From positions 69,206,693 to 69,270,692 of the forward strand of contig OY744605.1 in the NCBI GenBank assembly GCA_963556255.1: a stretch of 64,000 nucleotides of DNA. Direction: 5' to 3'. This document shows, in pieces, positions 35,049 to 41,806 of this stretch (position 1 is its first letter; each line of letters opens with the position of its first letter). The position numbers and the translations under genes are program-made. The notes below the pieces were generated by a model. It did no database searches. It was not told the DNA's origin and saw nothing but the letters and a program-made list of their open reading frames with translations. Source of the stretch: Allolobophora icterica. Its lineage: Eukaryota > Annelida > Clitellata > Crassiclitellata > Lumbricidae.

Positions 35049-35855
35049 TGTGACGGACCAGGATGGAGCAACTTTCATTATTGGGCGCTATGGAAGTTGT
35101 GGTGAGGTTGGTTGGGTGCTGTGGACCTCAGGGAAGGTCAATGGGTGCTGTGAGGCCTTGTGAGACCCAGATTGATGCCCCAGTGAGGCCCAGTGCCCCG
35201 GGACTGATGCCCCAGTGAGGCCCAGTGCCCGGGGACTGATGCGCGGGAAGGCCCAGTGCCCGGGGACTGATGCGCGGGAAGGCCCAGTGCCCGGAGACTG
35301 ATGCCCCAGTGAGGCCCAGTGCCTCAGTGGGGCCTCGGAAACCATATAAAAGGGGCCTCGTGCTTTGAATCGGCAGAGACGATCGCCGGGGACTATAGTG
35401 GCGAAGCCCTTGTCGGATGTTGGGGTATTTCGAGAAGAAAGAAGGGGTTCTCGATAGCGCAGGGTGAGACGTTTTCTTTGTGAGGCATCGATGTAATTAC
35501 TGCAAATAATTCTGTATACGAAAAGATTGTTTGTTTCGACACGAGAAGTGTTATGGTTTTGTGATTCTCTGGAAATACCGAATTATTGTGAATTTCGTGA
35601 TCATTTGGATCTTATAAGAAAAGTTCAATCGTTCTTCGATCTTGTCATTGTTGAGTCGATCGGTTGTAAGAAACTCGCAAGTCCTTCGACGACCTCGGAG
35701 GCCTTACCTACGCGTACACGTCCAGGGCCTTCTTAACCACTCGGCTGGCCTTGGAAGTATACGGTATATTGAGAGATATACCCCGGCGAGAGAGAGGTGC
35801 ATTTCCGCCACACTGGCCCCAGAGTTGGGGTAGCGAAGAACTCATTTCCGCCACA
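35049..35855 (+). repeat. 5' LTR
   Basis: U3 contains a ~36-bp tandem repeat (GACTGATGCCCCAGTGAGG type, 35170-35335) and a TATA box. The last ~90 bp contain an extra, diverged copy of the LTR end plus primer-binding region. Confidence 0.92.
35345..35351 (+). promoter_or_regulatory. TATA box of the 5' LTR
   Basis: TATAAAA in CCATATAAAAGGGG, followed by GC-rich sequence. The same box is at 41298-41304 in the 3' LTR. Transcription would start near 35375. Confidence 0.7.
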
Positions 35856-35856
35856 C

Positions 35857-35874
35857 TGGCACCAGAAGTGGGGT
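35857..35874 (+). promoter_or_regulatory. tRNA primer-binding site
   Basis: TGGCACCAGAAGTGGGGT starts two bases after the LTR terminal CA, as expected for a PBS complementary to a tRNA 3' end. The tRNA identity was not determined. Confidence 0.75.
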
Positions 35875-35903
35875 ATTGAAAGGACGAGTTTCGATCGACA
35901 GCG

Positions 35904-37448
35904 ATGGAAGACGAGGAGGTGATCATAACACGAAGACCGCGGGGCATCGAGGATCCGTACCCGGGCACTTCAACCCCTGTGAGAAGACGGCGAACGACGG
36001 AGGCCTCGCCAGAACGGAGTCTTTTGGAGGACGATGCCGATGGTGACCTGAGGCCCGATGAACTGAGCGGACGAAAAAGACCAGAAGAAACAATGTCGCC
36101 GCAGAAATTGCTGGAAGGCATCGGGGGCCTTCTGAAGACGAGACCGATGCAGATGAAACCAGGGAAGTTCGACGGAACAGGATCGTTGGAGTCTTTCCTG
36201 GCTCAATTCGAGGTATGTGCAACACATAACCGATGGACGGCCTCGGATAAGATCGACTTCCTCCGATGTGCATTGGAGAAAACTGCGACTCAGTTGTTAT
36301 GGGACTTCGGCGCTCGACAGGATGTAACATATGAAGAATTGGTCGGACGTCTGAGACAACGGTATGGCATGGAAGGCCAGGCCGAGATGTTCCGTGCGCA
36401 GCTCTACTATCGACGTCAGCGAGCTGGTGAGAACCTTAGCGATCTTCTTCATGACATTCGGCGACTTGTGGTCCTCGCGTACCCGGTTCCATCCAATGAG
36501 ACTACGCAGATCATCGCCAGGGACTCTTTCTTGGAAGCCATGCGGGACCGCGAACTTTCACTCAAGGTTCGCGAACGAGAGCCAAAAAGTTTGGACGAGG
36601 CCTACCGGACGGCGCTTCGTCTCGAGGCCTACCGGCAGACGACGGATACAGACGATCGGAGGAGGCAGCCGAACAGAGTGAGAGGAACGCAAGAAGCCGA
36701 CCTCGACGCTCAGATCCAGTCACGGATAGACCGCTTTCTCGCTGAGCTGCGCGAGGAGCAACGAAGATGGCAACGAGAGCTGGAGAGTAACATCGACCGA
36801 CAACTCCGAGAACTGCGGGGCCCAGCTGCGACGACCAATGCAACCGGGCTAGATGCTCGGCCCTCGGAAGGCAACCAGGGAGTTTCACGGCGGACGGCGG
36901 CCTGCTTCAACTGTGGCCGACCCAGTCACTTCGCTCGCAACTGCCGGCAAGGCCGCCGGCCCTTCAATCGTCAGCCAACAACGGCAACGGTCGGTATGGA
37001 ACCAACCGATGCAACGGAGGAAGTCGTCACTAACCACACGGCGCGGTCAAGGCTTCCGAACCGCGCAACCAACAACGCCATCTACATACGAGGTATAGTC
37101 AACGGACGACCGCAGACCTGCCTGATCGACACTGGATCAGAAGTAAGCCTGGTACCACTTTCTACTGTTGAAGGGTTAGACTTACGTCCTTGTAATCGCT
37201 TTTTGATGGCTGCTAATGGGTCTAATATACGGGTCCTTGGAGAAGTAAACATCCCGATTAAAATTCGGACGGGTTTTGAAATTCACACGGGTTTTCTGGT
37301 ATCCGATCAGATTGCTGAACCTGTGTTGGCTAAGGGAGCACCGATGTCGCTTGGGTTTTGGTACAGGGGCCTTGTTTGTTGGCCGTCGACGTGTCCCTCT
37401 TGTAAGGGGCAATGGGTCCATGTGGTGCCGGCGCGTGATCGTCGCTGA
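35904..37448 (+). CDS. Gag with protease domain (514 aa)
   Basis: Forms the retrotransposon particle. The N-terminus is charged. A capsid-like region (~70-240) has QMKPGKFDGTGSLESFLAQF and LRQRYG; a CCHC zinc knuckle follows (CFNCGRPSHFARNC, ~335), then an aspartic protease start with CLIDTGSEVSLVP (~410). The protease is followed by an abrupt change into the wrong frame around 37320-37340. The neighbouring frame continues with pol, so a small deletion or a frameshift site is possible; I favour a deletion because protease-end residues are missing. Confidence 0.85.
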   Translation: MEDEEVIITRRPRGIEDPYPGTSTPVRRRRTTEASPERSLLEDDADGDLRPDELSGRKRPEETMSPQKLLEGIGGLLKTRPMQMKPGKFDGTGSLESFLAQFEVCATHNRWTASDKIDFLRCALEKTATQLLWDFGARQDVTYEELVGRLRQRYGMEGQAEMFRAQLYYRRQRAGENLSDLLHDIRRLVVLAYPVPSNETTQIIARDSFLEAMRDRELSLKVREREPKSLDEAYRTALRLEAYRQTTDTDDRRRQPNRVRGTQEADLDAQIQSRIDRFLAELREEQRRWQRELESNIDRQLRELRGPAATTNATGLDARPSEGNQGVSRRTAACFNCGRPSHFARNCRQGRRPFNRQPTTATVGMEPTDATEEVVTNHTARSRLPNRATNNAIYIRGIVNGRPQTCLIDTGSEVSLVPLSTVEGLDLRPCNRFLMAANGSNIRVLGEVNIPIKIRTGFEIHTGFLVSDQIAEPVLAKGAPMSLGFWYRGLVCWPSTCPSCKGQWVHVVPARDRR

Positions 37449-40349: not shown

Positions 40350-40548
40350 CCATTAACGGTTTTGAATTAACCGAGTAAGTTTTATTGTGTGGCCAAAGTT
40401 AGAAATTTGGTGTTAGATGTTGTTGTTTATTGATACTGTTGGTCATTGATTAATTTAGTAGGACCGGAATAATTAACGGTTTTGAATTAGCAGCGTAAGT
40501 TTTATTGTGTGGCTAAAGTTAGAAATTTAATATTGGGTGCTGTTTAAT
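40350..40548 (+). repeat. ~73-bp unit duplicated at ~120-bp spacing
   Basis: TTAACGGTTTTGAATTA through AAAGTTAGAAATTT occurs at about 40352-40424 and again at 40473-40545 with a few changes. Non-coding 3' region of the element. Confidence 0.75.
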
Positions 40549-40594
40549 TATCGAAACAAAATGCTATTGTTCAGTGATTGGGGCCGTACGCATT

Positions 40595-40790
40595 CATGGG
40601 GCCTAGTGCCTCGGAGGGGCCTTAGTGCCCGAGACCTTAGTGCCTGGGCTTTAGTGTTCAAGGTCTTGTCGCATGAGGTCCTAGTGCCCAGCGAGGTCCT
40701 AGTGCCTCGTGGGGTCCTAGTGCCCAGTGAGGCCCAGTGCCCGGGAGGGCCCATCGGTCCTAGTGCCTCGGGACTTTATGTTATGCCTTC
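40595..40790 (+). repeat. Minisatellite related to the U3 repeats
   Basis: Repeats of GTCCTAGTGCCY / GAGGCCCAGTGCCCGG. The same AGTGCCC core is the U3 tandem unit of the LTR 400 bp downstream. Confidence 0.75.
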
Positions 40791-41001
40791 AGCCTAGTGT
40801 TTTTCTTTAGGTTGCAAAATGCGATTGTATTGACTGATAGTTATTGCTAATGACTTTTAGTTTTACGTGATAGTTTGAAACTGCTTTCGAGGTTGCCTTT
40901 AGTGCCGAGAATGTTTTCTCTTGAGTGATGATTTAATTGGAACCTTTACAGTAAATTGTCTCAGAGGGTGGGGACACCCTCTCACCCTGGCCCCCGGAGA
41001 G

Positions 41002-41806
41002 TGTGACGGACCAGGATGGAGCAACTTTCATTATTGGGCGCTATGGAAGTTGTGGTGAGGTTGGTTGGGTGCTGTGGACCTCAGGGAAGGTCAATGGGTG
41101 CTGTGAGGCCTTGTGAGACCCAGATTGATGCCCCAGTGAGGCCCAGTGCCCCGGGACTGATGCCCCAGTGAGGCCCAGTGCCCGGGGACTGATGCGCGGG
41201 AAGGCCCAGTGCCCGGGGACTGATGCGCGGGAAGGCCCAGTGCCCGGAGACTGATGCCCCAGTGAGGCCCAGTGCCTCAGTGGGGCCTCGGAAACCATAT
41301 AAAAGGGGCCTCGTGCTTTGAATCGGCAGAGACGATCGCCGGGGACTATAGTGGCGAAGCCCTTGTCGGATGTTGGGGTATTTCGAGAAGAAAGAAGGGG
41401 TTCTCGATAGCGCAGGGTGAGACGTTTTCTTTGTGAGGCATCGATGTAATTACTGCAAATAATTCTGTATACGAAAAGATTGTTTGTTTCGACACGAGAA
41501 GTGTTATGGTTTTGTGATTCTCTGGAAATACCGAATTATTGTGAATTTCGTGATCATTTGGATCTTATAAGAAAAGTTCAATCGTTCTTCGATCTTGTCA
41601 TTGTTGAGTCGATCGGTTGTAAGAAACTCGCAAGTCCTTCGACGACCTCGGAGGCCTTACCTACGCGTACACGTCCAGGGCCTTCTTAACCACTCGGCTG
41701 GCCTTGGAAGTATACGGTATATTGAGAGATATACCCCGGCGAGAGAGGTGCATTTCCGCCACACTGGCCCCAGAGTTGGGGTAGCGAAGAACTCATTTCC
41801 GCCACA
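41002..41806 (+). repeat. 3' LTR
   Basis: 805-bp copy of 35049-35855, lacking one GA dinucleotide in the GAGAGAGAGG tract. Followed by target duplication TTAC. Confidence 0.92.

Follow-up and report, generated by a model that had tools for sequence, protein, structure and literature searches.

A gypsy-type retrotransposon with a third gene

The stretch of the Allolobophora icterica genome analysed here (64,000 nucleotides of contig OY744605.1, positions 69,206,693 to 69,270,692; hereafter the window) contains at 35049-41806 a Ty3/gypsy-type long terminal repeat (LTR) retrotransposon, in which an open reading frame (ORF) related to the animal ZCCHC24 gene lies between pol and the 3′ LTR. We call this frame ORF3. 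The LTR pair is accompanied by a target-site duplication and a primer-binding site, and its two members show no substitutions and differ by a single 2-bp indel, arguing that the insertion is young. The exact LTR and TTAC boundaries and the 245-codon frame reported in a first-pass annotation of this DNA were thereby recovered. The element is organised as follows:

35045..35048, no strand: left copy of the target-site duplication, TTAC
35049..35855, plus strand: 5′ LTR, 807 bp, with ends TGTGACGG...CCGCCACA and TATAAAAG at ~35345
35856..35875, plus strand: primer-binding site, complementary to the 3′ end of what we take to be a tRNA-Leu-like tRNA
35904..37448, plus strand: gag-protease ORF of 514 codons, capsid-like, with a CCHC knuckle and an aspartic protease motif
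37276..38829, plus strand: pol remnant with the integrase C terminus; reverse transcriptase (RT), RNase H and part of the integrase are missing, with the deletion junction at ~37985
39003..39740, plus strand: ORF3, the ZCCHC24-derived accessory gene, 245 codons, stop-free, between pol and the 3′ LTR
39874..40221, plus strand: ORF4, acidic, 115 codons, with counterparts in copies of families A, B and C (see below)
41002..41806, plus strand: 3′ LTR, 805 bp
41807..41810, no strand: right copy of the target-site duplication, TTAC

The gag frame matched PF00098 above the Pfam cut-off (2.2e-4) and PF13975 below it (4.8e-4); its match to the Ty3-type capsid PF19259 was weak (23.9 bits against a cut-off of 29.1, E 3e-5). 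Two features absent from the first-pass annotation are ORF4, which recurs in sibling copies, and the state of pol. Most of the RT is gone, as are the RNase H and the initial portion of the integrase, and there is an additional gap inside the integrase, so that this copy cannot be autonomous. RT and RNase H upstream of the integrase are thus lacking in the window copy, though the family has both. Neither the element nor ORF3 recurs elsewhere in the window. At the 5′ LTR boundary, the LTR end and primer-site-like sequence occur twice, 43 bp apart (35800-35837 and 35843-35880), as if the LTR end had shifted.

ORF3 encodes a ZCCHC24-derived protein

At 250 codons, the longest stop-free run in the region between pol and the 3′ LTR (38830-41001) exceeds those of all 500 dinucleotide shuffles, whose longest runs averaged 92 codons and reached at most 211. 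The protein consists of an N-terminal part (residues 1-130, MYPxF...FLWxGR), a CCHC knuckle (133-151), a 3CxxC ribbon (168-210) and a tail resembling ZCCHC24_C (223-241). Both the ribbon (Zn_ribbon_3CxxC_2, PF17180; 1.4e-17, 63.9 bits) and the knuckle (zf-CCHC_2, PF13696; 1.8e-7, 31.2 bits) pass their cut-offs of 27 bits. In copies of families B, C and D the knuckle likewise passes and the ribbon scores 63.6 to 82.4 bits. All three ZCCHC24 domains exceed the cut-off in a family C copy (L020) and a family D copy (L024), in which ZCCHC24_C (PF23490) scores 44.9 and 36.4 bits, respectively; in the window ORF3, two of the three do. Because its C-terminal domain falls below the cut-off, we term the window ORF3 ZCCHC24-derived, rather than ZCCHC24.

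The named database matches of ORF3 are animal ZCCHC24-type proteins, the best being from an ostracod (61% identity across 44% of the query). The CCHC plus 3CxxC architecture proposed in the first-pass annotation is present, and ORF3 matches ZCCHC24 domains, not gag. Canonical ZCCHC24 is near-invariant in the listed arthropods, molluscs, annelids and vertebrates, with the sequence DGLDVSDQSK close to its end; family C ORF3 retains a host-like NLDVS. The sequences of three cellular relatives (P0005-P0007) pass from an intron into the central exon and then leave it again, placing introns at two positions, and ORF3 has an intron at neither. When the N-terminal half was compared with 119 proteins by shuffling, P0009 and P0008 stood out (z scores of ~11; next best, 4.9). 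The match of P0003 (z 3.1) was rejected, as several canonical proteins match equally well. A FLWxG-type motif in this half is common to families A to E, P0003 and P0008, and was not seen in the canonical ZCCHC24s shown. None of 54 pol matches fell on the contigs of P0003, P0008 and P0009 (2996, 2947 and 1789 bases, respectively), and scans of viral and prokaryote contigs revealed no relative of ORF3, pol or gag.

An AlphaFold model of ORF3 had a mean predicted local distance difference test (pLDDT) score of 54.6, with residues 1-103 mostly below 50 and the ribbon at 74-85. A sequence search of the PDB returned two weak matches to eL43 (best E 0.46). A predicted protein of Priapulus caudatus (P0010, LOC106813789) contains two tandem ZCCHC24-type ribbons and is possibly another unusual ZCCHC24 relative.

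ORF3 recurs in several element families

We searched the 1.118-Gb, 328-contig assembly that contains the window with ORF3 and scored 150 of 291 candidates, to which the following figures refer; families that appeared only among the matches of a canonical ZCCHC24 query (e.g., frames of 230 amino acids) were left out. Family A comprises 26 full-length, stop-free copies, the window included, at 82-100% identity to the window ORF3, and family B 42 copies at 52-56% identity, 40 of them stop-free. The remaining matches are 40-49% identical or partial. Altogether, 139 of the 150 scored rows are free of stops.

Twenty ten-kb stretches around ORF3 copies were retrieved, 14 from families A, B and C and six (L023-L028) from families D and E. 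In each of the former 14, ORF3 comes after gag and at least a piece of pol. Nine have LTR pairs that are 99.5-100% identical; in L010, L011 and L014 the best repeat is lower or cut off by the end of the stretch, and no LTR pair was found within the ten kb of L009 and L019. The 4-bp flanks match in L012, L013, L015, L016, L017 and L020. RT and RNase H are missing in seven of the 14 copies. Six others (L009, L010, L013, L014, L015 and L017) match P0129, a 788-residue RT-RNase H-integrase protein, nearly end to end, and the pol of L019 has a partial deletion that differs from the common junction.

The zinc-binding part is under purifying selection

Ratios of nonsynonymous to synonymous substitution rates (dN/dS) were determined with 24 of the 26 full-length A copies, five of the 42 B copies, and three C, four D and two E copies; L008, which is stop-free and on the minus strand, was not included. 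Single stops in the gag of L012, the gag of L014 and the pol of L013 were aligned as X and skipped in the counts. Within family A, dN/dS was 0.26 for ORF3 (24 sequences, 276 pairs), 0.21 for gag (10 pairs) and 0.10 for pol (three pairs). The ORF3 value conceals a strong asymmetry, with 0.087 for the zinc part (residues 131-245) and 0.57 for residues 1-130. Twelve disjoint pairs gave a ratio of nonsynonymous to synonymous differences (pN/pS) of 0.354 for the whole frame (p 1.7e-11) and 0.155 for the zinc part (p 1.1e-15). Ten of the metal-ligand positions are invariant in all 38 sequences of families A to E, and two are conserved in 37. The zinc part of ORF3 is thus under strong purifying selection, whereas the N-terminal half is much less constrained. 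Constraint is also seen in copies devoid of RT, with ORF3 ratios of 0.15-0.20 in family A and 0.22 in family B. Comparisons within D and between D and E gave 0.38 and 0.86 at low divergence, with no clear selection.

Recurrence across copies and purifying selection both agree with the earlier proposal that the ORF was kept as an accessory gene. Of the three outcomes that the first-pass annotation named as refuting its reading (an ORF confined to this copy, a better match to Gag, no purifying selection), none was observed. ORF3 probably serves several Ty3/gypsy-type families of the A. icterica genome as an established accessory gene.

Cassettes are exchanged between families

Families A and B are nearly alike in gag-pol, with synonymous divergence (dS) of 0.31 in gag and 0.21 in pol and mostly 85-99% DNA identity. 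Their ORF3s, 3′ regions and LTRs are only 53-66% identical, ORF3 dS being near saturation (1.88). Because the two families are nearly alike in gag-pol but far apart in ORF3, cassettes have been exchanged. In addition, two family A copies, L010 and L011, combine a window-like ORF3 (97-99%) with another LTR and another type of ORF4; on this ground, a constant linkage of ORF3 to its own LTR was rejected. The RT/RNase H deletion junction found at ~37985 in the window recurs in family A (window, L011, L012), family B (L016, L018) and family C (L020-L022, 75-77% identity), the pattern that a non-autonomous gag-integrase core moving between three LTR/ORF3 families would leave. RT-bearing and RT-less cores, LTRs and ORF3s have therefore recombined. 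ORF3, LTR, ORF4 and gag-pol are thus exchanged between families, giving rise to cassette mosaicism, probably by template switching between co-packaged RNAs.

The ORF4 protein has a net charge of -29 in the window and the motif PPxLxELELSSLFFY / PPDLxxIEMSSLFFY; the elements PP-[SP]DL...SLFFY and a W-x-PY-x-W end recur in families A, B and C. None of three ORF4s tested had a Pfam match. ORF4 is constrained among A copies (dN/dS 0.13-0.30); among B copies the ratios were 2.2-2.7, on a dS of only 0.01-0.04. Some A copies have an additional ORF in the 3′ region with a C2H2-like finger, CSQCLTLFSGKYAGHSLTKHLKRFH (L009 at 8496, 396 codons; L014 at 8547; oriented coordinates).

Origin of ORF3

In a first tree the window ORF sat on a branch of 6.4 and could not be placed, and an approximately unbiased (AU) test gave p 0.45 for a single clade with P0003, P0008 and P0009; addition of the sibling families improved the placement. 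In the resulting tree, A, B and C group together (support 99/97), as do D, E and P0008 (95/87), the latter group being joined by P0009 (90/80) and P0003 (85/83). All 14 element-type rows lie on one side of a branch whose support is just 67/72, in an unrooted tree that carries a long-branch warning. We favour a single capture of a ZCCHC24-type cellular gene, which would have occurred long ago and very likely by way of a host mRNA, probably a spliced one.

The A-B-C and D-E genes could instead have been taken separately from a ZCCHC24 gene, in two or more captures, and have converged afterwards. The separation of the two well-supported groups, the long branches, the low support of the branch that unites them and the host-like NLDVS of family C would all fit this case. 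However, the best tree keeps all element-type rows together, and the FLWxG-type motif is common to A-E, P0003 and P0008 and was not seen in the canonical proteins. Independent captures thus seem unlikely.

Expression and proposed function

Candidate splice sites lie upstream of ORF3:

35464..35465, plus strand: candidate 5′ splice site, CGCAGG/GTGAGACG, in the LTR leader
38936..38953, plus strand: candidate 3′ splice site, ACTGTTTCTGTGTTACAG, with a branch-point-like CTGAT ~25 nucleotides upstream of its end

A GTGAG donor is present in the leader of both A types of LTR, the other A-type LTRs (L010-L014) included, and families B and C have weaker candidates. The CTGAT, the pyrimidine-rich run and the CAG upstream of ORF3 are kept in A and B despite changed surroundings, and a comparable site is present in C. 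By a crude score, the candidate acceptor ranks only fifth of 481. With the donor in the LTR leader and the acceptor just upstream of the gene, it is somewhat more probable than the contrary that ORF3 is made from a spliced subgenomic RNA.

Human ZCCHC24 binds 3′ untranslated regions and stabilises mRNAs (PMC11624195). Because ORF3 is basic and lacks a membrane stretch, and human ZCCHC24 stabilises mRNAs, we favour a role as an RNA-binding cofactor on the element RNA, which it would stabilise, export or package; on balance, RNA binding at such a step is slightly the better bet. Selection holds the zinc core, and ORF3 is retained even where RT and RNase H have been shed; its persistence in such copies suggests a benefit to its own encoding RNA. 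The swapping of ORF3, LTR, ORF4 and gag-pol among families is part of this account. To this explanation as a whole, i.e., a captured ZCCHC24-type gene, expressed by splicing, serving as an RNA-binding cofactor for element RNA and exchanged as a cassette, we assign a probability of about 0.6.

Several observations weigh against it. The ZCCHC24_C match of the window ORF3 reaches 18.6 bits, below the cut-off of 27, and that of a B copy 18.2 bits; the DGLDVSDQSK tail is absent from the window ORF3. The host ZCCHC24 gene was not found; a full-length canonical query yielded element-type matches, none above 67% identity, among the 150 scored of 851 candidates. The database contains close relatives of pol (~63-66% identity) but no relative of ORF3 that is as close. 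The N-terminal part is weakly constrained (pN/pS 0.68, p 0.064 on the 12 disjoint pairs), and three pairs within family C gave dN/dS of 0.66-1.2, on just 10-16 changes per pair. The strongest donor-like site of the element lies in pol, not in the leader. Finally, the human binding motif UGUWHWWA is enriched neither in the window element (two found, 1.8 expected) nor in 10 sibling copies, leaving binding of element RNA through this motif unsupported.

This lack of enrichment would also fit a factor directed at the host, with ORF3 competing with or redirecting host ZCCHC24 or the RNA-silencing machinery and acting on host RNAs or proteins. Such a factor could use the RNA-binding-type core that ORF3 retains, and the strong divergence of the N-terminal part between families is what a conflict interface might show. 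However, no positive selection is seen in the N-terminal part (0.57 in family A), and constraint in A and B copies lacking RT fits a benefit to the encoding RNA better than a diffusible effect. We consider a host-directed role improbable and prefer the cofactor role on element RNA. The location between pol and the 3′ LTR and the possible spliced message are also those of an env-like gene, by which ORF3 or ORF4 would serve entry or exit. Nevertheless, the 19-residue hydrophobicity maxima (0.79-1.12 in five ORF3s, 0.91-1.51 in three ORF4s) reveal no membrane-spanning stretch, so that the third ORF does not encode a transmembrane protein as in env-bearing elements, and such a function is very hard to credit.

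It is equally hard to credit the reverse direction, in which domestication of an element of this kind gave rise to animal ZCCHC24: an unrooted tree would permit this direction, but canonical ZCCHC24 is near-invariant in the listed animals while the element copies are on long branches, and the cellular relatives have introns. Least tenable is a gene fragment carried by chance, for which there are precedents in plant elements with transduced genes in one or few copies (PMC7264820) and in rotifer extra ORFs without significant departure from neutrality (PMC5408684), since the constraint on the zinc part, the 139 stop-free rows and the presence of ORF3 in families between which its dS nears saturation refute it, within the reach of our tests, for A, B and C; for D and E, with ratios taken at low divergence, it may still hold.

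Families D and E occupy another carrier

In the ten-kb stretches around the D and E relatives (L023-L028), and in the downstream stretches L029 and L031-L034, we found no gag, pol or LTR of the A-C kind. The upstream stretch L030 contains a distant gypsy-like pol on the opposite strand. The D/E genes are part of a repeat unit of ~12 kb that lies within (TA)n and whose 21-bp inverted ends agree at 19 of 21 positions; also in the unit are a decayed non-LTR reverse transcriptase and an array of satellite repeats with a period of ~166 bp. We tentatively suggest, at somewhat less than even odds, that the ZCCHC24-derived gene is a mobile cassette that moves between LTR families by recombination and has also entered this unrelated unit.

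Other features of the window

An open frame of a long interspersed nuclear element (LINE), 1009 codons for an endonuclease-RT, is found at 5390-8419 (plus strand). The LINE may be young, because L031 has a near-identical open copy of 1007 codons. At 13733-25274 (minus strand) are ORFs that presumably represent formin exons, with a proline-rich run and an INF2-like N-terminal domain. Fragments of another gypsy-like element, protease- and RT-like, occupy 59522-62587 (minus strand); similar long open frames occur in L030.

Relation to known systems

To our knowledge, few animal LTR elements have a fixed cellular gene other than env, and we know of no domain that ORF3 has in common with CERV, an accessory protein discussed below. 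Captured ORFs in LTR elements are already known; for the ZCCHC24-type gene described here, the evidence of retention is strong. No report of ZCCHC24 within a mobile element was found among open-licence PubMed Central (PMC) papers, in which the combination of 3CxxC with retrotransposons or transposons retrieved a tapeworm paper only (PMC8166898). That paper describes the zf-3CxxC domain as overrepresented in Sparganum proliferum.

Cellular ZCCHC24 has the CCHC knuckle, the 3CxxC ribbon and the C-terminal domain in the same order as ORF3 (PMC11624195). ORF3 differs from it by its own N-terminal half, the absence of introns and of DGLDVSDQSK (NLDVS being kept in family C), and its location in mobile elements. 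Plant LTR elements carry additional ORFs (PMC7264820), and in orchids a Ty3/Gypsy element with an ORF for an AlkB N6-methyladenosine (m6A) demethylase similarly acquired and fixed a cellular domain that acts on RNA, and spread together with it (PMC9289625). The orchid elements are 25-kb plant elements that encode an enzyme, whereas ORF3 is an animal zinc-finger gene found in several families, with measured constraint and cassette exchange. In bdelloid rotifers, LTR elements have a non-env ORF3 at the same position, of the GDSL or DEDDy type, and one ORF type occurs across element classes (PMC5408684). These are enzymes for which no significant departure from neutrality is reported; here we observe strong purifying selection and a near-invariant animal source gene. 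Low dN/dS has been described for other accessory ORFs of LTR elements, sORF1 and sORF2 of the MDG1 group. In contrast to ORF3, these are small, lie upstream of gag and are of the transmembrane or helix-turn-helix type, with no ZCCHC24 domains (PMC11952523). For the proposed role of ORF3, a model is provided by CERV of the Caenorhabditis elegans element Cer1, an accessory protein that is translated from a spliced RNA and required for export of the genomic RNA (PMC10309623).

ORF3 has its source in a near-invariant RNA-binding protein of animals; the selection acting on the captured gene can be measured, and this gene behaves like an exchangeable cassette. It thus becomes testable which step in the life of element RNA requires a host-type RNA-binding protein, and divergence among element copies reveals which parts of the ZCCHC24 core cannot be changed. 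If the gene is indeed a mobile cassette that has also entered the ~12-kb unit, this genome would hold a large selfish population, with hundreds of candidate matches, of the gene for a conserved animal RNA-binding protein.

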